Positions 18,156-28,861 of a stretch of 30,877 bases of DNA are shown piece after piece. This DNA comes from a virus: positions 1-30,877 of IMG/VR virus record IMGVR_UViG_3300027969_002047. The stretch is one strand, 5' to 3'. The translations under genes were made by a program, and so were the position numbers. The notes beneath the pieces are model-generated. The model was not told the origin of the DNA. It searched no databases and saw only the letters and a program-made list of their open reading frames with translations. Each line of letters opens with the position of its first letter. Position 1 is the stretch's first letter.

Positions 18156-20747
18156 TTACTTGTTAGGCAGTTTTGCTGTAGGTGCTGTAAAGTTAGCGGT
18201 ATATCTTGCATAACCTTTGGTAACACGAAAATCATCAAGATAACCTTGCATATAAATTCCATAAGCAGGATTAATACCACCAACTACAAGAGTATTTTGC
18301 GTTATATTTTGAGCTCTTGTTCCTGATGCAACACTTACTCCATCAATATAAAGTGTAAGAGTTGTGCCATTTCTAACAACAGCTACATGGTGCCAAGCAT
18401 TTGGAAAATTACCAGGAACAGCATAAGATAAATCTTGTCCAGTACCATTAATCCTAAGGTAAAAACTTCCACCATTATAAAATAATCCAAGACCACCACT
18501 AGAATTTGCTGTACCAAAATCAAAAAAACCACAATTACCATTAGTTGCAACTAAAGAATATGCCCAAAATTCTACTGTAAAAGAACCGGTACCTAAAGTT
18601 TCACTAGAAGTTGGAAAAGTTACAATATCTCCAGTACCATCAAAATACATACTGCCGGTTCCATATTTGTAAACATCAGTTCTTACTTTAGCATCCGCAA
18701 CAATTTGTATATTGTTTTGCTCAGTTGCATCATAGATGCCAGCATTTTTACTCAACAATAATAGTTGAGTACCAACACCAGTTGTTAATGGAGTGGTACT
18801 AGGAGTAAATGTTGTTGAATAAAGAGCTGTACCTTTAGTAAGTTTGACATTTGAAAGATAACCAGAAAATAAAGCTGTTGCTACACTTGATATATGGCAA
18901 CCAATTGTGTGAGTTGTGCCACCATATAAAGTGCCAGTCATTGATTGTGTTGTTCCAACTTGAGTGCCATTAATAAATATTAAAAATGTAGAACCACTTC
19001 TAACTAAAGCAAAATGATTCCATGCATATAATTGCAAACTACCGGCATTATAATTAATTGCCCAATTTGAACCATCATTAGAACTTAACAATTGCAAAGG
19101 TCTGGTTCCTCCACCATTTATATCTAATCTAATTGCTGCATAACTTCCAGTATTACCATTTATGTACGCAATAGTTTGTTGACCACTACTATTAGGATAT
19201 ATCCAACCTTCAAGTGTCCAATCGCCACTTCCTAACTGTAAATTTGCATTATTTGTTATTGTCAAATAATCAGTCGTACCATTAAAATATGTGGATCCAG
19301 TATCATTATTTGCACTATAAGATGTAACATTATTGCCAAAAGGATTAAATCGTTCAACAGCTGAATCGCCAGTAACAGTTACAGCAAGTGCATTGGTTGA
19401 ATTGTCTACAAATCTGTTTGATTGACAAGTTAAAAATACTGTATTGGTAATAGCAGTTAATGGTGAAGTTGGTGGAGTAAATGCTGAAGTATAAACTGCT
19501 GTGCCTTTAACGATACGGAAATTTGAAACATATCCATTCCATAAATTAGTCGTACTGTATACACGACCTATTGAAGTAGCGGTAGTTGTCATATTTAATG
19601 ATCTGGTTACCGTATTGCTAAGAGCACCATTAATATATAATTTCTCTACACCACTTTGTCTAGTCCATGCAATATGATTCCAAGTTTGTACTGGAGCCAA
19701 TAAAGTACTATCTGTTGCAGTTGACCAACTACCAAAATTTATTGTGCCGCTGTTTCTGATAGCCATTTGCCAACCAGCATTACCATTATTTTGAGAACCT
19801 GCAAGACGACTATCTGAAGCGCCTTGGCCATAAGAATTAGCATAAATCCACATTTCAATAGTAAAATCACCTGTACCTAAAGCAAGATTTGCTCCATCAA
19901 AATCTAAATATTGACCTGATCCACTAAAAGAAGTACTCCAATTTCCTACACCAAATGGATTCACACTTCCTTGTATAGGAGTTCCTGATGGAGTTACAGT
20001 AAGATTATTATTTGAAGAATCTACAAAACTTGAATTTATTGCATCATTATTTACACCATCTGCTTGTAATAATAATGTTGTATATCCAAAATATGCATCT
20101 GCTGGAGCTACTGTCACAGTTACACTAAATGTTTTGTTTGCATCTTGTAACTCAGCATCAGTAGCGGTTATTGTAAATGAATAGGTTGTTTCAGCACCAA
20201 CACTAACTGTACCATAAAAGTATCCGTTAGCTAATAATGAAGTACCCGCTGGCAATGTGGAACCTGCTGCCACGGAATATGAAGTTGCACCAGTAGCACT
20301 AAGATTGACACCAAAAGCTGTATTGGCCAATGGACTATCCAAAGGACTTGCAGTAACCCAAGTTGGATCGGTTGAATATGTTAAACCTGAAACTCTAATG
20401 CCTGTGCCACCATCTGGATTAACAACATAAAGATTATAAGTTGCAGCTGATTTAGCTGGTACTTGAACTCTTAGTGTTGTGGAATTTACATAGGTAACTG
20501 CCGATGCTGGAGTAGTGTCGATTAATACTGTTGCACCGGACACAAAGTCTGTACCTGTAACCACAATGTAACCACCACCCACATTGACGGCTGTATCGTC
20601 AAGTACAGTAAATGCACTATTGGCCACATTGGCGTAAGCAATTTTAGGTGCCAAAGACTGTGCAAAAGCAGCTACTGCGGTATTACTTAATTGTGTGGTC
20701 TCAATTGTGTAATTACTAATCTGAGCGCCGGAGATTTTTGTGGTCAT
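18156..20747 (-). CDS. Fibre protein: IPT/Ig-like stalk with three LamG-type lectin domains
   Basis: The 863-residue protein is a probable tail adhesin. Residues 1-32 are unique and may attach it to the virion. Residues about 33-130 form an IPT/TIG-like domain (NVGGGYIVVTGTDF, VVNPDGGTGIRVSGLTY). Residues about 130-215 form a putative Ig domain (GSTLPAGTSLLANGYFYGTV, ETTYSFTITATDAE). Three concanavalin/LamG-like domains follow, at roughly 220-430, 440-650 and 655-863, each with WNHIAWTR- or WHHVAVVR-type strands and a repeated GYVSNFRIVKGTAVYTSAFT-like end. LamG folds often bind glycans. The stalk is nearly identical to that of the RCC1 protein at 27164. A perfect late promoter lies upstream. 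It closes the accessory region before gene 13. Confidence 0.88.
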   Translation of the reverse strand: MTTKISGAQISNYTIETTQLSNTAVAAFAQSLAPKIAYANVANSAFTVLDDTAVNVGGGYIVVTGTDFVSGATVLIDTTPASAVTYVNSTTLRVQVPAKSAATYNLYVVNPDGGTGIRVSGLTYSTDPTWVTASPLDSPLANTAFGVNLSATGATSYSVAAGSTLPAGTSLLANGYFYGTVSVGAETTYSFTITATDAELQDANKTFSVTVTVAPADAYFGYTTLLLQADGVNNDAINSSFVDSSNNNLTVTPSGTPIQGSVNPFGVGNWSTSFSGSGQYLDFDGANLALGTGDFTIEMWIYANSYGQGASDSRLAGSQNNGNAGWQMAIRNSGTINFGSWSTATDSTLLAPVQTWNHIAWTRQSGVEKLYINGALSNTVTRSLNMTTTATSIGRVYSTTNLWNGYVSNFRIVKGTAVYTSAFTPPTSPLTAITNTVFLTCQSNRFVDNSTNALAVTVTGDSAVERFNPFGNNVTSYSANNDTGSTYFNGTTDYLTITNNANLQLGSGDWTLEGWIYPNSSGQQTIAYINGNTGSYAAIRLDINGGGTRPLQLLSSNDGSNWAINYNAGSLQLYAWNHFALVRSGSTFLIFINGTQVGTTQSMTGTLYGGTTHTIGCHISSVATALFSGYLSNVKLTKGTALYSTTFTPSTTPLTTGVGTQLLLLSKNAGIYDATEQNNIQIVADAKVRTDVYKYGTGSMYFDGTGDIVTFPTSSETLGTGSFTVEFWAYSLVATNGNCGFFDFGTANSSGGLGLFYNGGSFYLRINGTGQDLSYAVPGNFPNAWHHVAVVRNGTTLTLYIDGVSVASGTRAQNITQNTLVVGGINPAYGIYMQGYLDDFRVTKGYARYTANFTAPTAKLPNK
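20103..20657 (-). repeat. Stalk module shared with the RCC1 fibre gene, copy 1
   Basis: This 555-base segment encodes residues 31-215 of the LamG fibre protein. It is the counterpart of 28226-28780. The encoded proteins match at most positions, and the DNA matches in long runs, for example in the part that encodes ETTYSFTITATDAELQDA. Confidence 0.85.
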
Positions 20748-20786: not shown

Positions 20787-20794
20787 TATTTATA
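20787..20794 (-). promoter_or_regulatory. T4-type late promoter of the LamG fibre gene
   Basis: TATAAATA reads on the minus strand from 20794 to 20787, a perfect late -10 element that overlaps the stop of the DUF2061 gene. It is 39 bases before the LamG ATG. A 6-bp pair, TAGAGT near the promoter and ACTCTA just before the ATG, could form a weak masking structure in read-through RNA. Confidence 0.8.
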
Positions 20795-21050
20795 ATTTAC
20801 CCCAATTGATTCGGCTCCAAACTCGTTCATGGCACCAGTAAATGAACGGTTTTAGTACCATTTCCGTAGCACCAATAGCTAAACTGACCGCAATTTTACC
20901 AGTAATTATGTAACTTATTACAATAGTAGTTAAGGTGCCACAGCATCTATAACTGTATGCTTTTACAAAACTGCGTAAGGCACTTTCTGTATTATTTAAG
21001 ACCCAACTCTTTACGAATTTTTGTAGCAGAGATTGAATGTATTGCATCAT
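20790..21050 (-). CDS. DUF2061-type small membrane protein
   Basis: The 86-residue protein carries the DUF2061 pattern across residues 20-86: ESALRSFVKAYSYRCCGTLT, then a hydrophobic segment TIVISYIITGKIAVSLAIGA, and the hallmark KPFIYWCHERVWSRINWGKL at the end. Family members are small predicted inner-membrane proteins of unknown function. In several bacteria such domains occur beside or fused to APS kinase and sulfate-assimilation genes. That association fits here, because the gene overlaps the 3' end of the APS-kinase fusion gene by 59 bases. I chose the ATG at 21050, which has AGGA 8 bases upstream; the frame is open to a TTG at 21068. A coupled role with the kinase is inferred. Confidence 0.82.
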   Translation of the reverse strand: MMQYIQSLLQKFVKSWVLNNTESALRSFVKAYSYRCCGTLTTIVISYIITGKIAVSLAIGATEMVLKPFIYWCHERVWSRINWGKL

Positions 21051-21828
21051 CAAATGTTTCCTGTTCAATTTTATAACCTACATCACGACCATAGGTAATG
21101 TTTACAATATTAGGTACTACTTGAATTTCATATTGACCTTGGAACAATGGATCCAAATCTCTACGAATGTATGATTTAACCTGTTCGATTGCAAAAGGAT
21201 TAGAACCTTGCCAACCTTGACAATCACGAATCTGAATAATTACTTGACCAGTCTTGGCAATAGATCGTTCAAACAAAGCTCGATGACCTTCATGCCATGG
21301 TTGCCAACGACCTAACATCTGTACTGTTTCTTTTTGCCAATCAAAAGTTGGACGCCTACGATTCTCAATAATGTGACTACCAATAAACTCAGCCCATTTT
21401 TCTGCATCTTGTTCTGTAACACGGAAGTCATAAACTTCAGGTTCAACAAAGGCTTTATTAGTATCTTCATACCGACCTTCTTTGATAGTATCGACCCAAA
21501 TAGTCCAATCGGCTTTAAAATTGTTACGCATCTCAACCAATGGTGCAACAAAATCGCAGATAACATAATCACCACCAGCTTCAAGTGCAAATTGTGCCAT
21601 TCTTAATGACTGTCGAATACGACCTTCTTTGGAGAAATCCCAATCATTATATTTTTTACGAACTTCATCGGCATTAAACCACTTAACTTGGCAATTAAGA
21701 TCGCCAATAAATTCATTTAATGCTCGATCATAACTTATTTCTCCGTGTTTCTCTAGGTACTTTTTGAGAGCTTGTGCTAAGAATGTTTTGCCAGCACCAG
21801 GCAAACCCATGATTAAAATCTTTTTCAT
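20992..21828 (-). CDS. APS-kinase-like / HxGH nucleotidyltransferase fusion
   Basis: The 278-residue protein has two domains. Residues 1-160 resemble adenylylsulfate (APS) kinase, which makes the sulfate donor PAPS from APS and ATP. The P-loop is GLPGAGKT (8-15), followed by NADEVRKKYNDWDFSKEGRI where APS kinase has DGD-VR and an FS-x-x-DR element, then DFVAPLVEMRNNF (compare SPYR-x-x-R). Residues 164-278 form a nucleotidyltransferase with GRWQPWHEGH (173-182) and ISATKIR (266-272). These motifs are closest to NMN adenylyltransferase, not the ATP sulfurylase motif. The protein could therefore make PAPS, work on a nucleotide or cofactor, or both. It overlaps glf by ATGA and the DUF2061 gene downstream. 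Confidence 0.85.
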   Translation of the reverse strand: MKKILIMGLPGAGKTFLAQALKKYLEKHGEISYDRALNEFIGDLNCQVKWFNADEVRKKYNDWDFSKEGRIRQSLRMAQFALEAGGDYVICDFVAPLVEMRNNFKADWTIWVDTIKEGRYEDTNKAFVEPEVYDFRVTEQDAEKWAEFIGSHIIENRRRPTFDWQKETVQMLGRWQPWHEGHRALFERSIAKTGQVIIQIRDCQGWQGSNPFAIEQVKSYIRRDLDPLFQGQYEIQVVPNIVNITYGRDVGYKIEQETFDDAIHSISATKIRKELGLK

Positions 21829-22826
21829 ATTTGTTCCTTAATAAAATTATCAACTATTGCCAATGAAGAACTGATTGCCATGTCCATATCAATATACACA
21901 TATAGACCACACCTACCAATAAACTGGACTTTTTTGTTTTTTATGTCCTTATACTTATTATATATTACTCTGTTTAAACCTTCTGAATCTTTTACTGGAT
22001 AATATCGTTCATAATTATTATCTTTATAATCACAAGGTTCTTCTAATGTATATCTTTCACCTGTACCATGCTCAGGAAACAATGACCATTTTGTAATGCG
22101 AGTATAAGGTCCATCATCAGTAAAGTTGACTACTGGTGTTGGCATATCAAAGTAAGATATTTTGGTAGACCTAAACTTAATCGACCTGTATGGTAATTCA
22201 CCATAACAGAAATCATAATACTCATCGATGGCCATAGAGTTAAAGACATATTCATAATCTTCTTCCATCTTCTTATCAAACTTGGTATTCAATAACACTT
22301 TGATATTTTTATGTTTCAATATATTATCAAAGAGTTTTTTGTATCCACCTTTAGGTAAATATTGATATTCATCGTTTGGAAAATACAACTCATTTAAATC
22401 ATTTCTTACTTTAACTCGGTTCAAAATGGTATCATCTATTTTGTCGGTTGGCAAGCCCCACATTTTTTTGGTATAAGGTGCATAGACAGTTTCGAATAAT
22501 TTATCACCTAAAATTTTTTGAGTTTCTAAATTGGGTGGTAAAGTTAGAAATTGACCTTTGTGATATGCTTTGACTTTGTGTTGGTAAGGTACCCATTCGG
22601 TGTATTGGGACAACCATTCAAATACTTTTTGGTTGTTGGTGTGAAAGATGTGTGGACCATAACGATGAACTAGAACACCATCAACCATTTCATCGTAACA
22701 GTTGCCGCCAATATGACGCCTCTGGTCAATTATGGTAATATTGTAATCTCTATTTGCCAGTTCTCTGGCTATAACCGAACCTGAGAATCCTGTTCCAACG
22801 ACCAGTATGTTTCGTTTTGTTTCCAT
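21825..22826 (-). CDS. glf: UDP-galactopyranose mutase
   Basis: This flavoenzyme converts UDP-galactopyranose to UDP-galactofuranose, the donor for galactofuranose in surface glycans. The 333 residues include an N-terminal FAD-binding Rossmann motif, VVGTGFSGSVIARELA (G11-x-G13-x-x-G16), followed by IIDQRRHIGGNCYD and the substrate region HRYGPHIFHTNN. Later landmarks are YAPYTKKMWGLP, YQYLPKGGYKKLF and a C-terminal GRCGLYVYIDMDMAI, the usual second FAD contact. Length is slightly under the usual 370-390. Its ATG overlaps the preceding glycosyltransferase by 58 bases, and its stop overlaps the next ATG, so it is tightly coupled to the cassette. Confidence 0.94.
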   Translation of the reverse strand: METKRNILVVGTGFSGSVIARELANRDYNITIIDQRRHIGGNCYDEMVDGVLVHRYGPHIFHTNNQKVFEWLSQYTEWVPYQHKVKAYHKGQFLTLPPNLETQKILGDKLFETVYAPYTKKMWGLPTDKIDDTILNRVKVRNDLNELYFPNDEYQYLPKGGYKKLFDNILKHKNIKVLLNTKFDKKMEEDYEYVFNSMAIDEYYDFCYGELPYRSIKFRSTKISYFDMPTPVVNFTDDGPYTRITKWSLFPEHGTGERYTLEEPCDYKDNNYERYYPVKDSEGLNRVIYNKYKDIKNKKVQFIGRCGLYVYIDMDMAISSSLAIVDNFIKEQI

Positions 22827-23602
22827 AATTTGATTACATCATCCTTTGTTACATAGAATGGAATGTCCATTTTATTGGACATGTGTATCACTAAAGATCC
22901 CATTGGCATAAACATTTTGAACTCTGGTTTATTCCACACCTCAGAAATAGTATTGCCTTCCCAATGATGATCTTCTTCACCAATAATTAATAGTTTATCA
23001 AAGTGTTCTTTATACTTTTTAAATACCTTTGATTGAACCATAAATGATTCTTGTGTGTACCATGTGCTTCTATAATATCTATGCTTTGTAGGAACAACTA
23101 AGCAAGGTCTAAAATAAGTGTCGTTGTGTGGATTGTTTGGATGATAATATAACTGATTAAAATCTTGTGGAAAAATACCTACTTCTAAACCAGTAATATT
23201 TGAAAGATAATTCCATGTATTAATCATTTCACCAATGGCATTAGGTAAATGTAAATAGTCATCCTCTACAATGTATACCAAGTCATCATCAGGTAAATTA
23301 TAAATGTATTTGTAAGCTACCTCAACAGAATATCTAGATTTTTTCTTGGCAGATAAACCTTCTTGATTTCTTGCTGGTAAAAAATCAATTGTTATGTATT
23401 CATGTGGTCGAATAAGTTCTTTTAATATATCTTGAAAATCAACAGAAGAATTATCATCTACAATATGTAATGTTTTTTCTGGTATATCTTTAAGATTGGT
23501 AATAATAGAATTCAAACATCTCAAAATACATTCTGATTTATCAACTATTCTGTCAGACTGTAAAGAGGTTCTATTGCAAGTTCTTAGTACAACATGAATC
23601 AT
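22769..23602 (-). CDS. GT-A fold glycosyltransferase
   Basis: The 277-residue protein looks like a family 2-type glycosyltransferase. It begins MIHVVLRTCNRTS with an early strand, has HIVDDNSS (46-53) at the nucleotide-sugar site and EDD in YIVEDDYLHLP (113-115) in place of the metal-binding DxD. A later IGEEDHHWEGNTISEVW could hold the catalytic base. It has no signal peptide or membrane segment, so it should act in the cytoplasm. It overlaps glf by 58 bases, and its ATG overlaps the methyltransferase stop (ATGA). A galactofuranosyl donor is possible because glf is next to it, but the substrate cannot be read from the sequence. Confidence 0.82.
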   Translation of the reverse strand: MIHVVLRTCNRTSLQSDRIVDKSECILRCLNSIITNLKDIPEKTLHIVDDNSSVDFQDILKELIRPHEYITIDFLPARNQEGLSAKKKSRYSVEVAYKYIYNLPDDDLVYIVEDDYLHLPNAIGEMINTWNYLSNITGLEVGIFPQDFNQLYYHPNNPHNDTYFRPCLVVPTKHRYYRSTWYTQESFMVQSKVFKKYKEHFDKLLIIGEEDHHWEGNTISEVWNKPEFKMFMPMGSLVIHMSNKMDIPFYVTKDDVIKLWKQNETYWSLEQDSQVRL

Positions 23603-24180
23603 AATTTACGAATAGCAGATTGATAACCACCAGGTAATTCAAATACTTCTAATTTGATCCAGTAACATTGCATAAAATTATCTACTGCCATTTTAGGTGA
23701 GTTGCACGGATTACTATCTTTTTTCCACACCATACTGTCATCAAATAACATTACACCACCTTTATTTAATAATTCAAATCCTAAAATACAATCTTGCAAT
23801 ACACCTGGTGCTCGGTGATCTCCATCAACATAGATAAAATCAGCTTTAACACCACGGTTATACAGGTCAATTAATCCATCAAAAGATTTTTTATTAATAA
23901 ACTCTACCACGCCTTTAGGTTCAAATTCTTCCAAGTTACTTAAAAACATTTCTTTAGTTTGTGGAATGTTTTCTTCAGGCAAATCATTACTGCTGTCATA
24001 CGGATCTATGGCATAGTGTTTATAATTTGGATTTTGTTGATGGCAAATAGCAGCAATATTAAATGTACTATCACCTTCAAAACATCCTATTTCAATTGAT
24101 ACTTTTGGAAAACCAATTGAACTTACCATGTGTTGAAAACTTCTAATTGTGTGGTCGTGGAATCTTACTGATAGTTTCAT
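23599..24180 (-). CDS. Class I SAM-dependent methyltransferase
   Basis: The 193-residue protein resembles the small methyltransferases often found in glycan clusters (Methyltransf_24 type). The SAM-binding motif I is IEIGCFEGDST (29-39), the acidic residue after strand 2 is in HYAIDPYDSS, and DFIYVDGDHRAPGVLQD (114-130) is the conserved VDGxH motif that often carries a metal or catalytic ligand. LNKGGVMLFDDS (138-149) follows. It probably methylates a sugar or another small group on a glycan; DNA or protein targets cannot be excluded. ATGA overlaps join it to the GT25-type gene before it and the glycosyltransferase after it. Confidence 0.85.
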   Translation of the reverse strand: MKLSVRFHDHTIRSFQHMVSSIGFPKVSIEIGCFEGDSTFNIAAICHQQNPNYKHYAIDPYDSSNDLPEENIPQTKEMFLSNLEEFEPKGVVEFINKKSFDGLIDLYNRGVKADFIYVDGDHRAPGVLQDCILGFELLNKGGVMLFDDSMVWKKDSNPCNSPKMAVDNFMQCYWIKLEVFELPGGYQSAIRKL

Positions 24181-24893
24181 GTTTGTAGGGTATCATTTCG
24201 AATTGTTGAACGACCTTCTAAAGGTCTACCAAGAATGGTTGTTTTGAGATTACCATCATCTTCTCTTTCTTTAACATCATATGCGTAAATACCCATTTGA
24301 TGAATTGGAAATATGTCAGCTCGAATGATAATATCTAGTGGCGCACAGATACCAAATTTAATAACATGTGCAAGCATATTCTTTGCAACGGCAGGATCAA
24401 TTGCATATGCATGAGCCCTACAAATAAAATGATAGTTTGGTCCTTCTGATGCATGAGTAGGTGTTGGTAAAACTGGCCAGCCACCATTGACCTGTTCATT
24501 ATTACCTAGGTATGCGATTGAATTAAATACAGCATGCTTAAGATATGGTTGCAACATTACAGAATCATGTTCTAGAATAACAATAGGTTTATCTAACTCA
24601 ACGCATTTAGCCCATAAAGAAATATGAGATAACGCACAAGCAACTTCACCTCTAGTCAAATAGTGATCAGTAATTTTTAACATCTTCATTACCGAACTGT
24701 TTTTAGAATGTTCGGGTTCCTTGATGCGTTGATTATACCCATCATAGGCATCCCAATACTCATAAGGCATTTTTACCTTATCACATGATTCAGCACATCG
24801 TAAGGCTACATCTTCGGATTTTTTATTATCTTTAACCCGAATGATGTAAGCCTTATCTACATCCATATTATACGAAAAAAACAAAGAATTCAT
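24177..24893 (-). CDS. GT25-type (LPS) glycosyltransferase
   Basis: The 238-residue protein matches glycosyltransferase family 25, whose members add sugars such as galactose to lipooligosaccharide. Landmarks are DKAYIIRVKDNKKSEDVA near the N-terminus, RGEVACALSHISLWAKCVEL (81-100) and PIVILEHDSVML (103-114), with the family's E-x-D-type metal site in LEHDSV. The region around CRAHAYAIDPAVAKNML also fits. The first ATG (24893) lacks a clear ribosome binding site; a second in-frame ATG at residue 10 is an alternative that gives a more usual start for the family. It lies at the head of a run of overlapping genes ending in the DUF2061 gene. Confidence 0.85.
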   Translation of the reverse strand: MNSLFFSYNMDVDKAYIIRVKDNKKSEDVALRCAESCDKVKMPYEYWDAYDGYNQRIKEPEHSKNSSVMKMLKITDHYLTRGEVACALSHISLWAKCVELDKPIVILEHDSVMLQPYLKHAVFNSIAYLGNNEQVNGGWPVLPTPTHASEGPNYHFICRAHAYAIDPAVAKNMLAHVIKFGICAPLDIIIRADIFPIHQMGIYAYDVKEREDDGNLKTTILGRPLEGRSTIRNDTLQT

Positions 24894-24910
24894 AATAAAC
24901 TTTCAAAGAA

Positions 24911-25333
24911 TTACATTAATGCATCTACATCCTCATGTGTTACAGCTGCTTCAACTTGAGCAACACGAGCATCTCTTGTTGTTCTTGCACCAGGCAATTG
25001 TTCTTCAAGTGTAGCAACTTCACCTGCAAAGTCTGGAATGTCTTTCTTCATTTCAATTTGATTTTCAATCATTGTTACGGCAAAATTAGCTTGACTAATT
25101 AAAGAACCTTTACGCTCATCAACAGTCAATTCTCTTTTACCCCAAATAATCTCAATTGGATTTTTGGTAATATCAATTGTATGTGTTGTGATAATCTCAC
25201 GATTCTCTGTAAGGTCAGGAGTAATCTCCACGGCTGGTGACCATCCGTCTTGACCCTCTGGTGCTGGGGTATCCCAAACATCCGTTACTTGACCATTTTG
25301 AACTCGAACATTGTATCCTGATCTTGTTGGCAT
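24911..25333 (-). CDS. Phage protein of unknown function, possible fibre-associated factor
   Basis: I do not recognise a named family. The 140-residue protein starts MPTRSGYNVRVQNGQVTDVW, has an aromatic and proline-rich N-terminal part (WDTPAPEGQDGWSP), a central ITKNPIEIIWGKRELTVDER and a helical C-terminal half (residues 75-140, coiled-coil-like, MIENQIEMKKDIPDFAGEVA). This mix resembles small proteins found next to fibre genes in aquatic phages, for example assembly factors. The ATG has a good AGGAG site. It sits between the sulfotransferase fusion and the glycosyltransferases, with 12- and 17-base gaps. The function is open. Confidence 0.72.
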   Translation of the reverse strand: MPTRSGYNVRVQNGQVTDVWDTPAPEGQDGWSPAVEITPDLTENREIITTHTIDITKNPIEIIWGKRELTVDERKGSLISQANFAVTMIENQIEMKKDIPDFAGEVATLEEQLPGARTTRDARVAQVEAAVTHEDVDALM

Positions 25334-25345
25334 TACTATCTCCTA

Positions 25346-27106
25346 TTACTGTTTAAATTTTTGTAAATCGTTTTTAATCTGATTAAATGGAGCAGACCAA
25401 TCTCCAAAAACTTCTTGTCTGTACAACTTCACAGAATCATACCAAACTGTGGTATTCCCCTCAGGAGCCCACAAATAATAAGGCAGAATTGGTGTTACAA
25501 TCCATGTAGGTATTCCCATTGAACCACATAAATGGGCTACTGAAGTACATGATGTGATAACTAAATCACAACTAGCTGCAGCCAATCGAGTTTCTTCCCA
25601 ATGGTTCAGCGGTACTTCTTTTACCCAATATGGTTTAAATTGAGAACCTTCATCTCTCTGTAACGAAATGAATTCTGCTTCTACATCATCTAAGGCATCA
25701 AATAGATTAGTTGGTGGAAAGATCCGATGTTGTTCATGTTCGAACTGTGGATTACCTTGCCATCTTAAACCAATTCTTAAACCTTTATGAGGTTGTACTG
25801 CTGGTTTATTTATATAAGATTTTCCTGATATATCCTTATACTCGTAACCTAACAGAGGTATGGTAGACATAGATGGTGCCCAAAAATCATGAACTACCCC
25901 ATACACGGCATCATGCTGAACCACCGCAACGACTCCTTCTATATCACGGAATAGTGTCGCCAACGCACCAGAACAGGCCACAATCACTTCACCAGCAATC
26001 TTTGCAATATCTCTTGCGTAACGAACTCCGTGAATCTGGTCGCCTAATCCGCCTTCTAGATTTAATAGTACCGTTCCTTTAGACTTGCCGTCCCACATAG
26101 GCATTGGTGATCTAGGTGGTTCATTACCAAAAACACCTTCATCTCGTCCACGGAATAATAAGTTTTCACCTTCTAAAAGTTTACCTTGTTGCATTAAATA
26201 CCAACCACGATTAAAGGCTGCACGATTGTTCCAAGGTTCTTCTTGTTCAATCTTTTGCGCTAATCTCCAACCTTCTTTAAAGTCGCCCATTAGACCAGCA
26301 GCTAACTGCATATCAAGGTCGTGAATAGGTTTATTGGCAGCTTTTTCTCCTAACCAAAATCTTGGTTGTACAAAGTCCCAATAACGATGTTTCAATACTT
26401 CTTTAGAATCTTCTTTGTGTTGATAACCTAATTTAGGGTTAACATCATGAAGGCCTTTTACTTCCCAAACTTCTTCATCTTTTTCTTGTAGATTTGTTCC
26501 GTCAATGGCATTTAAATCATATTCGTATTCAGGTAATTGTAAAAACTCATGAACCCGTTTTAATTCTTTTTGTGGATCATTCATTAGATCATCATAGTCA
26601 ACAATCAAAAAACATTCAGGTGCAAATGAATATCCTTTTTCAAATGATTGATATGATTCTTTAAGGTGTTTAATAAGATCATCTTTAAGTAAAAAGTGAT
26701 CTAAATCTTTTGGTTTGGCAATACGAACAAAAGAAGCGGCACAATCTTCCACTTTACGAACTGTAGCAATAATCTTAGGTTTATGTCCAAGAACTTTAGA
26801 CATAGTACGCATGTTAGTATCATCTGCCCAACCTCGAGCTTTGTCAAGAATAATAGGTTTATCAATATCATCATATTGAGTTTTACAGATGTTATTTAAA
26901 ACATGCTGAATTTTTTCTTCTTCTTTTTTCTGATCTGATTGAGCTCTTGTGGACAAACTATCTGCCCATGCTCTTAAAGTACCCACTAAAGTATCTAAAA
27001 GATTAGAGGTAGATGTGGCATGGATTTTTGGATTTTGGCTGAGAATAGCAGCCAAGACTGTTGAACCAGAACGTGGTAGTCCTGATAGGAAATAAATCTT
27101 TTTCAC
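25346..27106 (-). CDS. Sulfotransferase - TPR - glycosyltransferase fusion
   Basis: The 586-residue protein joins two enzyme types. Residues 1-250 resemble PAPS-dependent sulfotransferases: the 5'-phosphosulfate loop is YFLSGLPRSGSTVLA (5-19), IIATVRKVEDCAASFVRIAK (112-131) fits the 3'-phosphate-binding region, and DYDDLMNDPQKELKRVHEFL is a typical late motif. Residues about 255-325 look like TPR helices (NRAAFNRGWYLMQQGKLLEG). Residues 345-586 resemble the GT-B-fold C-terminal half of heptosyltransferase or TPR-linked glycosyltransferases: LLNLEGGLGDQIHGVRYA, LRIGLRWQGNPQ and CDLVITSCTSVAHLCGSMGI. I chose GTG at 27106, with AAAGG about 6 bases upstream and the P-loop-like motif right after; the frame is open to a TTG at 27121. 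It may sulfate and glycosylate the same glycan. Confidence 0.85.
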   Translation of the reverse strand: MKKIYFLSGLPRSGSTVLAAILSQNPKIHATSTSNLLDTLVGTLRAWADSLSTRAQSDQKKEEEKIQHVLNNICKTQYDDIDKPIILDKARGWADDTNMRTMSKVLGHKPKIIATVRKVEDCAASFVRIAKPKDLDHFLLKDDLIKHLKESYQSFEKGYSFAPECFLIVDYDDLMNDPQKELKRVHEFLQLPEYEYDLNAIDGTNLQEKDEEVWEVKGLHDVNPKLGYQHKEDSKEVLKHRYWDFVQPRFWLGEKAANKPIHDLDMQLAAGLMGDFKEGWRLAQKIEQEEPWNNRAAFNRGWYLMQQGKLLEGENLLFRGRDEGVFGNEPPRSPMPMWDGKSKGTVLLNLEGGLGDQIHGVRYARDIAKIAGEVIVACSGALATLFRDIEGVVAVVQHDAVYGVVHDFWAPSMSTIPLLGYEYKDISGKSYINKPAVQPHKGLRIGLRWQGNPQFEHEQHRIFPPTNLFDALDDVEAEFISLQRDEGSQFKPYWVKEVPLNHWEETRLAAASCDLVITSCTSVAHLCGSMGIPTWIVTPILPYYLWAPEGNTTVWYDSVKLYRQEVFGDWSAPFNQIKNDLQKFKQ

Positions 27107-27163: not shown

Positions 27164-28861
27164 TTAATTGGCGGTAACAGCTATAGAACTACGACCAAAA
27201 GAAAATACTTTACTCCAATTTGTTCCTGTTCCAACCTGTACAGGACTTGATACATCGCCACCTCTGTTAAGTCCTAATTGTCCCGAATTGGAACCCCAAC
27301 TCCACAAAGTACCATCAGTTTTAATTGCTAACACATGTTCTAGTCCACCAAATACCTGACTCCAAGTTGTGCCTGAACCTACTTGTGTTGGACTGGATTT
27401 GTAAACTGTATCATTTAATCCTAATTGGCCAGAATTATTTCTTCCCCAAGCCCATAATGTACCATCTGTTTTAATTGCTAATGTGCCATATTGAACGGCT
27501 GCTATTTTACTCCAATTTGTTGCTGAACCAATTTGATTTATATTTGAAGTATTAGTTGTATTGTTACTTCCTAATCCACCAAAAGCATTTTGTCCACAAG
27601 CCCATAATGTTCCATTAGAGCTTATAGCCACAGTATGTCCAGCTCCAACCACAGTTGCACTCCATGTTCCACCTATTTGTACAGGAGTTGTATAGCTGTT
27701 TGTATTATTTTGTCCTAATTGTCCTGCACTATTTCCTCCCCACACCCATAATGTTCCATCGGTCCTTATAGCTGCACTAAATCTTTCAGAGCTACTTATA
27801 GTACTCCATGTTGTTACTGAACCAACTTGTACTGGACTGGATTTATAAGTACTACCACCATCACCTAATCTTCCATCATTGGCACAGCCCCAAGACCATA
27901 ATGTTCCATCGGTTTTAATTGCTAATGAACATAAACCGCCGCCGGATACTTTACTCCAGTTTGTTAATGCACCAACCTGTACGGGACTAGAACGATTTGT
28001 TACATCACCGACCCCTAATTGGCCTTGTGGATTTCTTCCCCAAGTCCAAAGTGTTCCATCGGTTTTAGTAGCCAGAGCGTGGTTTGAAGTAACATGTTGA
28101 TTGCCGCCTGATACATTATTCCACGTTGTTGCTGTACCTACCTGCGTTGGACTGGATTTATAAACTCTATCATTGGTTCCTAATTGTCCATAGTCATTGG
28201 CGCCCCACAACCATAATCTTGTTGCTGGTGTTACTGTGACAGTTACGGCAAATGTTTTGTCCGCATCTTGCAATTCAGCATCAGTAGCTGTTATTGTAAA
28301 TGAATAGGTTGTTTCAGCACCAATTGTAACAGTACCATAAAAGTATCCATTAGCTAACAATGAAGTACCCGCTGGCAATGTGGAACCTGAAGCAACAGAA
28401 TATGTTGAAGCTCCTGTGGCACTAAGAGAAACATTAAATGCTGTATTTGCATTTTGATTTGATAAAGGACTTGAGGTAACCCAAATTGGACTAGACGAAT
28501 AAGTTAAACCATTAACTTTAATTCCTGTACCGCCATCCGGATTGACCACATAAAGATTATATGATGCTGCTGATTTGGCAGGTACTTGAACTCTTAAAAT
28601 TGAACTACTAACATAAGTAACGGCCGAAGCTTGTGTTGTATCAACTAATACTGTTGCACCATCCTGAAAATTAGATCCGGTAACCACAATATAACCACCA
28701 CCTACGTTAACTGCGGTGTCATCTAATACACTAAATGCACTATTAGCCACGTTGGCGTATCTAACTTTAGGTGCAATTGAACCCGCAAATGTTGAATATG
28801 TAGCATAGTCAACAAAGGTGTTTGGTGTAACGTTTGTACTAGTTATTTGTGTAAATGCCAT
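27164..28861 (-). CDS. Fibre protein: IPT/Ig-like stalk with seven-blade RCC1 propeller
   Basis: The 565-residue protein is a probable tail adhesin. Residues 1-27 are unique. Residues 28-212 repeat the stalk of the LamG fibre protein almost exactly: an IPT/TIG-like domain then a putative Ig domain. Residues 214-565 hold seven RCC1-type repeats of about 50 residues, each with an LW-x-WG strand (216, 271, 321, 371, 419, 469, 519), a QLG turn, SSP-x-QVG and IKTDGTLW. The last segment (KVFSFGRSSIAVTAN) would close the ring on the first blade, as in known seven-blade RCC1 propellers. Such propellers bind proteins or ligands in cells. Use as a phage receptor-binding head is inferred from the fibre context. 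Confidence 0.88.
   Translation of the reverse strand: MAFTQITSTNVTPNTFVDYATYSTFAGSIAPKVRYANVANSAFSVLDDTAVNVGGGYIVVTGSNFQDGATVLVDTTQASAVTYVSSSILRVQVPAKSAASYNLYVVNPDGGTGIKVNGLTYSSSPIWVTSSPLSNQNANTAFNVSLSATGASTYSVASGSTLPAGTSLLANGYFYGTVTIGAETTYSFTITATDAELQDADKTFAVTVTVTPATRLWLWGANDYGQLGTNDRVYKSSPTQVGTATTWNNVSGGNQHVTSNHALATKTDGTLWTWGRNPQGQLGVGDVTNRSSPVQVGALTNWSKVSGGGLCSLAIKTDGTLWSWGCANDGRLGDGGSTYKSSPVQVGSVTTWSTISSSERFSAAIRTDGTLWVWGGNSAGQLGQNNTNSYTTPVQIGGTWSATVVGAGHTVAISSNGTLWACGQNAFGGLGSNNTTNTSNINQIGSATNWSKIAAVQYGTLAIKTDGTLWAWGRNNSGQLGLNDTVYKSSPTQVGSGTTWSQVFGGLEHVLAIKTDGTLWSWGSNSGQLGLNRGGDVSSPVQVGTGTNWSKVFSFGRSSIAVTAN
28226..28780 (-). repeat. Stalk module shared with the LamG fibre gene, copy 2
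   Basis: This segment encodes residues 28-212 of the RCC1 fibre protein and pairs with 20103-20657. Similarity stops sharply at both ends, where each protein switches to its own N-terminus and its own head domain. Confidence 0.85.

Follow-up and report, generated by a model that had tools for sequence, protein, structure and literature searches.

The genome fragment IMGVR_UViG_3300027969_002047 of a T4-like aquatic phage (a whole virus record of IMG/VR; the window analyzed here is its full length of 30,877 bases) carries a cassette of glycan-related enzyme genes. Our leading interpretation, held at about even confidence, is that this cassette is a swappable module that decorates the phage's own RCC1-repeat adhesin with sugar and sulfate. 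The cassette consists of seven minus-strand genes (27121-20992) plus a DUF2061 gene, lies between adhesin genes upstream of those for gp13 and gp14, and encodes in transcription order a fusion of a sulfotransferase with a glycosyltransferase (GT) of family GT9, a protein of 140 amino acids (aa), a GT25 enzyme, a methyltransferase, a GT2-like enzyme, Glf, a kinase, and DUF2061. An earlier note made from the sequence alone had named most of these genes at this place, including two to three GT domains and a methyltransferase in one unit, and gene calls and Pfam matches agree with it; the 140-aa gene, which it had left unmentioned, also belongs to the set. The coupling that it described from GT25 through DUF2061 is likewise visible as overlaps of 4 nt (GT25/methyltransferase), 4 nt (methyltransferase/GT2), 58 nt (GT2/glf), 4 nt (glf/kinase), and 77 nt (kinase/DUF2061), and the junctions preceding these are gaps of 12 to 42 nt.

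The strongest evidence here, still an association, suggests the RCC1 adhesin as the substrate of the cassette. Among 59 phage loci that were found by their kinase gene and had at least 4.5 kb of upstream sequence, 39 have the sulfotransferase/GT9 pair together with RCC1 repeats and the other 20 have neither (Fisher p 3.6e-16, a value that overstates independence, given the relatedness of the loci). Clustering of the kinase at 95% identity gave 14 clusters with the sulfotransferase, 15 without it, and 1 mixed cluster. Six loci encode a stand-alone sulfotransferase without GT9, none of them with RCC1, and nine have GT9 and the sulfotransferase as separate genes in reversed order, all still with RCC1. 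When loci were selected by the sulfotransferase instead, RCC1 repeats lay no more than 2.8 kb away in 40 of 41. With one adhesin type tied to the sulfotransferase/heptosyltransferase pair, there is a concrete candidate for the substrate, in analogy to the heptosyltransferase TibC, by which the adhesin TibA is glycosylated (PMC4358343). Ser and Thr together make up 25% of the RCC1 adhesin. The motif Tyr-Lys-Ser-Ser-Pro occurs in several of its repeats (within residues 236-538), in two cases preceded by Asn-Asp, and offers possible modification sites.

The AlphaFold model of the fusion enzyme, built with 22 relatives (predicted local distance difference test score 87), resolves a sulfotransferase (residues 1-265), a helical TPR-like linker (approximately 268-330), and a GT-B domain of the heptosyltransferase (GT9/TibC) type (336-591). 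In structural alignments with VIA-align, the fold closest to the N-terminal half is that of TPST1/2 (TPST1 Z 18.7 over 243 residues at 13% identity, other sulfotransferases lower), and LPRSGST, R122, and S130 are invariant in 22 fusion-enzyme sequences. The PRSGST loop would bind the 5'-phosphosulfate and the Arg/Ser pair the 3'-phosphate in the expected site for 3'-phosphoadenosine 5'-phosphosulfate (PAPS). By its modeled fold and predicted PAPS-binding residues, the N-terminal half is a sulfotransferase as the earlier note had it, though not one that stands alone. The GT9-like domain was missed by Pfam; in the model, the C-terminal half has the GT-B fold of heptosyltransferases (WaaC Z 16.1, GT9 structure 3tov Z 15.2, and TibC Z 14.9, over 228 to 240 residues), and its likeness to TibC is one of fold. 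For each half, a protein-modifying enzyme (TPST and TibC, respectively) ranks among the nearest folds. No single record in the annotated phage collection covers both halves, and a search for the full-length fusion in 190 alphaproteobacterial genomes gave, among the matches listed, the C-terminal GT part, one sulfotransferase part only, and none with both, though such fusions may exist elsewhere.

We infer the functions of all these proteins from sequence, context, and predicted structure, and in the same way that the adhesin is the acceptor, which donors are used, in what order the steps run, that this operon is transcribed late, and that PAPS is supplied. In the mechanism that we propose, the cassette would be transcribed with the fiber genes, and its soluble enzymes would modify freshly synthesized RCC1-repeat adhesin inside the host cytoplasm. 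The fusion enzyme would add a sugar via its GT9/TibC-like domain and sulfate via its TPST-like domain; the GT25 and GT2-like enzymes would lengthen or vary the glycan, with Glf supplying UDP-galactofuranose to the latter, the methyltransferase would cap it, and the kinase protein would boost PAPS or a PAPS-like donor. A swap of the sugar module (Glf and GT2 here, ADP-heptose genes elsewhere) would then alter the decoration. Membrane segments are predicted in none of the cassette's seven proteins. DNA glycosylation was also considered as a role of the cassette and judged unlikely for genes that sit with fiber genes.

Sites resembling T4-type late promoters precede structural genes on the cassette strand: 6 of 9 minus-strand ATAAATA sites are followed by a gene start after 8 to 45 nt (p = 2e-6), as such promoters would be, and the motif count itself is not above chance. 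One ATAAATA inside the sulfotransferase gene (at 25807), conserved in close relatives, was considered and set aside as an internal promoter; the Tyr-Ile-Asn-Lys codons at this place can account for it.

Several points weigh against decoration of the adhesin. The minus-strand ATAAATA sites include none immediately ahead of the cassette genes, and for this reason read-through from upstream fiber genes has to be assumed. The RCC1 repeats and the sulfotransferase/GT9 pair may be linked simply by sharing a recombining host-recognition region, lipopolysaccharide (LPS) is a frequent target of the GT25 and GT2 families, WaaC as an LPS enzyme scores about 1 Z unit above TibC, and the sulfate acceptor may be a tyrosine or a sugar, both being candidates. 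The same enzymes might instead change the host LPS or capsule with galactofuranose, sulfate, and methyl groups and thereby keep the phage or its competitors from re-adsorbing, which was the second of two readings offered by the earlier note and which we consider rather unlikely. It gains from the LPS and capsule pathways to which GT25, the GT2 families, Glf, and ADP-heptose genes belong, from the top rank of WaaC among GT9 folds, and from the preference of the pelagimyophage authors for O-chain modification as the role of host recognition cluster GTs (PMC7029224). However, the seven-gene cassette includes no membrane-embedded flippase or polymerase, its linkage is to one adhesin type, and its position in the structural region, with the late timing expected from it, fits virion proteins better than early exclusion. 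We prefer adhesin decoration, the better supported of the two readings, because of the RCC1 linkage, the lack of membrane segments, and the position among structural genes.

Nine further IMG/VR contigs carry these genes in unchanged order (one contig being cut inside the sulfotransferase gene), and there are partial copies besides. Identity of the cassette across those contigs is mostly 80% to 94% (in some down to 54% for the methyltransferase and 67% for the 140-aa gene), whereas gp13 is only about 50% and gp14 about 38% identical at the same loci; since gene order is kept at such identity while gp13 has diverged this far, the cassette appears to be a mobile module. Most enzyme comparisons give a ratio of nonsynonymous to synonymous substitution rates (dN/dS) of approximately 0.04 to 0.15, exceptional ones reach as high as 0.27, and the cassette enzymes are under purifying selection; the 140-aa gene evolves fastest (0.26 to 0.43). 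Conserved order and reading frames in other contigs, together with low dN/dS, argue that the cassette is not a product of chance. Seen outward from the fusion enzyme, 53 loci have a core of RCC1 adhesin, sulfotransferase/GT9, 140-aa gene, and usually GT25, and the rest is swapped between glf with GT2, ADP-heptose genes (rfaE2, rfaE1, hldD), a Gly_transf_sug gene, a DUF6445 gene, or none of these; no two of these classes occur together in any of the loci seen. The ADP-heptose genes that stand in place of glf and GT2 (TIGR02199 1e-48, TIGR02197 1.6e-60) are found, for example, at L287:13766-16344, which also has a cupin gene and a kinase-only APS (adenosine 5'-phosphosulfate) kinase, and at L298:12068-14935, and from sequence this class looks to include contigs whose other structural genes are podovirus-like. 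A check for glf, sulfotransferase, and kinase together in related phages, as the earlier note had suggested, found them; the combination that it had singled out is nonetheless not a fixed one, with glf in a minority of sulfotransferase cassettes and the kinase in many phages without a sulfotransferase.

Variation of this kind could also arise if a recombination hot spot had gathered unrelated glycan genes without a common product, and the region is indeed hypervariable in T4-like aquatic phages (PMC7029224). We regard such hitchhiking as improbable in view of the seven genes kept in one order and far better conserved than gp13, the mutual exclusivity of the alternative sugar modules in the loci seen, the low dN/dS, and the sulfotransferase and GT9 being fused or adjacent split genes, always with RCC1.

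The assignment of Glf as a UDP-galactopyranose mutase, made in the earlier note, is borne out by profile matches (PF03275 with 150 bits versus a cut-off of 26; TIGR00031 with 276 bits, slightly below the equivalog cut-off of 303.75), by a FAD-binding Rossmann domain, and by catalytic residues that are kept in alignments to 1wam and 3hdq, with YGPHIFHT, YTKKMWG, VKVRNDLNELYF, PYTRIT, and GLYVYIDMD aligned to 1wam, the Klebsiella enzyme. We take the catalytic residues of the K. pneumoniae mutase to be His63, Tyr155, Trp160, Arg174, Tyr185, Arg280, Tyr349, and Asp351. The phage protein is compact, with about 35 aa of solved mutases missing. This form of the GT2-like gene (83% to 92% identity) was found only together with glf, and its product is a candidate galactofuranosyltransferase. 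The 140-aa protein has no credible match in Pfam or PHROGs, and DUF2061 is an inconstant member present in only some of the loci.

The kinase protein combines two domains, of which the earlier note, calling it APS-kinase-like, had described the first. This N-terminal half matches PF01583 (33 bits versus a cut-off of 21) and the profile of APS kinases (1.6e-16) without reaching the apsK equivalog cut-off (26 versus 139 bits). The structures nearest to its fold are APS kinases (VIA Z 15 to 18, maximum 17.8), above gluconate and shikimate kinases, and the P-loop, NADxVR, DF..EGR, and FV(A/C)P motifs are conserved, with the Asn after DRxE of APS kinases replaced. The HxGH domain of about 110 aa is most like NMNAT (profile match 5.8e-10), weakly so and with only part of the profile aligned (25 bits versus a cut-off of 127), and Pfam gave no match to the ATP-sulfurylase domain (PF01747) in this protein. 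PAPS supply by the kinase, as the earlier note had suggested, is therefore plausible yet unproven, given a second domain that resembles NMNAT and not ATP sulfurylase; with moderate confidence, we propose that the kinase makes PAPS or a PAPS-like donor.

The kinase is not restricted to the cassette: IMG/VR yielded matches to at least 592 relatives, isolates such as Stenotrophomonas phages carry it too, and of six large contigs picked by gp23, one has both kinase and sulfotransferase and five have neither. It might be a general phage gene adjoining gp13 that serves nicotinamide adenine dinucleotide (NAD) salvage or another nucleotide-linked metabolite and has no part in sulfation, a role that would be compatible with either reading of the cassette and that we find quite conceivable while leaning slightly against it. 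The NMNAT likeness of the second domain fits this role, as does the lack of a PF13469 match in 28 of 32 divergent phage records with the kinase. In Stenotrophomonas phage Bhz60 (L112:4559-6385), the kinase/nucleotidylyltransferase gene lies between a NADAR-domain gene and a DNA methyltransferase gene, and this neighborhood points the same way. Sulfate activation is favored instead by the N-terminal half, an APS kinase by profile and fold, by the kinase-only version kept beside the sulfotransferase cassette in L287 and L289, and by SAR11 genomes that have sulfotransferases and mostly no other PAPS routes. Moreover, in 5 of 10 non-SAR11 alphaproteobacterial genomes, no more than 3.5 kb separates the kinase gene from a PF13469 sulfotransferase gene (with 1 to 7 PF13469 genes per 2 to 10 Mb genome, the rough chance of this is well under 2% per genome), and in Asaia (L216), it immediately follows a sulfotransferase-like gene of weak score. 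A metagenome-assembled genome of Bradyrhizobium (L211:6085-11810) has the kinase between GT9-like and sulfotransferase genes beside a repetitive adhesin-like gene, which by analogy may be a bacterial parallel to the phage set.

Many SAR11 genomes encode the kinase chromosomally (approximately 45% to 55% identity; carriers in L197-L276), as do other alphaproteobacteria, and in one SAR11 locus (L223:7998-8779), the APS kinase and HxGH nucleotidylyltransferase are two overlapping frames. Most SAR11 genomes tested, many of them incomplete single-cell or metagenome assemblies, gave no ATP sulfurylase or CysD-type matches, and several of them have sulfotransferases. The APS kinase with its HxGH nucleotidylyltransferase is on this basis a candidate sulfate-activation route in SAR11. 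The most far-reaching version of our proposal is a long shot: a bifunctional enzyme would attach both sugar and sulfate (the latter perhaps to tyrosine) to the RCC1 adhesin of the phage itself, using PAPS from a minimal two-domain PAPS synthase that would also be the sole sulfate-activating route of many SAR11.

Table 1. Cassette genes, flanking adhesin genes, and a promoter-like site in the window.
Feature	Position	Strand	Evidence
RCC1-repeat adhesin with TIG/He_PIG N-terminal region; proposed substrate	27164..28861	-	Pfam RCC1 1.6e-55, WD40_RLD 1.6e-78
Sulfotransferase/GT9 fusion enzyme, 591 aa	25346..27121	-	Pfam Sulfotransfer_3 (PF13469) 2.2e-18, above cut-off; AlphaFold; structural alignment
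140-aa protein, usually directly downstream of the fusion enzyme	24911..25333	-	Conserved position
Glycosyltransferase family 25	24177..24893	-	Pfam PF01755 Glyco_transf_25 5.2e-17; recurs in many sulfotransferase cassettes
S-adenosylmethionine methyltransferase (Methyltransf_24)	23599..24180	-	Pfam 7.6e-17
GT2-like glycosyltransferase	22769..23602	-	Pfam Glycos_transf_2 3e-5, just above cut-off
UDP-galactopyranose mutase Glf, 333 aa	21825..22826	-	PF03275 GLF 7.6e-44; TIGR00031 3.3e-82
Two-domain protein: APS kinase (1-156) and HxGH nucleotidylyltransferase (~168-277)	20992..21828	-	Pfam APS_kinase 7.4e-8
DUF2061 small predicted membrane protein, overlaps kinase gene	20790..21068	-	Pfam 5.2e-17
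TATAAATA, T4-type late-promoter-like site, 39 nt upstream of LamG adhesin gene	20787..20794	-	
LamG/TIG adhesin downstream of cassette	18156..20747	-	Laminin_G_3 2.2e-51, TIG 4e-7

The T4-like character of the genome is seen in minus-strand homologues of the neck proteins gp13 and gp14, terminase, tail sheath, portal, prohead protease, scaffold, major capsid protein (gp23), and helicase, with gp23 being 62% to 65% identical to those of, among others, cyanophages (Synechococcus, Prochlorococcus), pelagiphage HTVC008M, and Methylophilales phages. Ahead of gp13, the order is LamG/TIG adhesin, cassette, RCC1-repeat adhesin, and another fiber-like gene. The two adhesins that flank the cassette have a common TIG-type N-terminal region and different C-terminal domains (LamG versus RCC1), in sequence as if their tips had been exchanged.

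With its variable island of fibers and GTs beside the neck genes, whose contents differ among relatives, the region is an already known one, the host recognition cluster of T4-like aquatic phages. Like the cluster of pelagimyophages and cyanomyophages, it is a hypervariable structural-region island by gp14 with tail fibers and several GTs, and rfaE-type genes have been reported among the LPS-related genes of those phages (PMC7029224). It differs in the sulfotransferase/GT9 fusion, the APS-kinase protein, and the linkage to one adhesin, and a text search of PMC7029224 found no word with "sulf". Sulfotransferases of aquatic phages (S-SRM01, S-SKS1, and OM43 phages), the function of which has been called unclear, share the Sulfotransfer_3 domain and come from marine and freshwater phages (PMC10580990), but the enzyme described here is fused to a GT9-type domain. 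With the TibC/TibA system, the phage set shares the GT-B heptosyltransferase fold, the adhesin partner, and, in some phage relatives, ADP-heptose genes; unlike TibC, the phage domain is fused to a sulfotransferase, and the likeness, at 12% to 13% identity in the structural alignment, is known from the fold. The human PAPS synthetase PAPSS1 similarly has an APS kinase, with the fold of APS kinases, followed by an HxGH nucleotidylyltransferase in one chain, whereas the second domain of the phage protein is about 110 aa long, NMNAT-like by sequence, and not of the ATP-sulfurylase family. Phage-borne mutases are also encoded by glf of T4-like Aeromonas, Erwinia, and Agrobacterium/Rhizobium phages (approximately 32% to 42% identical; Phage C48C1 54%). 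Literature searches of partial coverage turned up no phage cassette that combines glf with a sulfotransferase and an APS kinase. As far as our searches reach, the new features are a TPST-like domain fused to a GT9-like one, the link between this fusion and RCC1 adhesins, the interchange of galactofuranose and ADP-heptose modules, and a kinase with two domains. If our interpretation is true, receptor-binding proteins would be altered by posttranslational modification and sugar-module exchange, a layer of host-range evolution that fiber sequences do not show.

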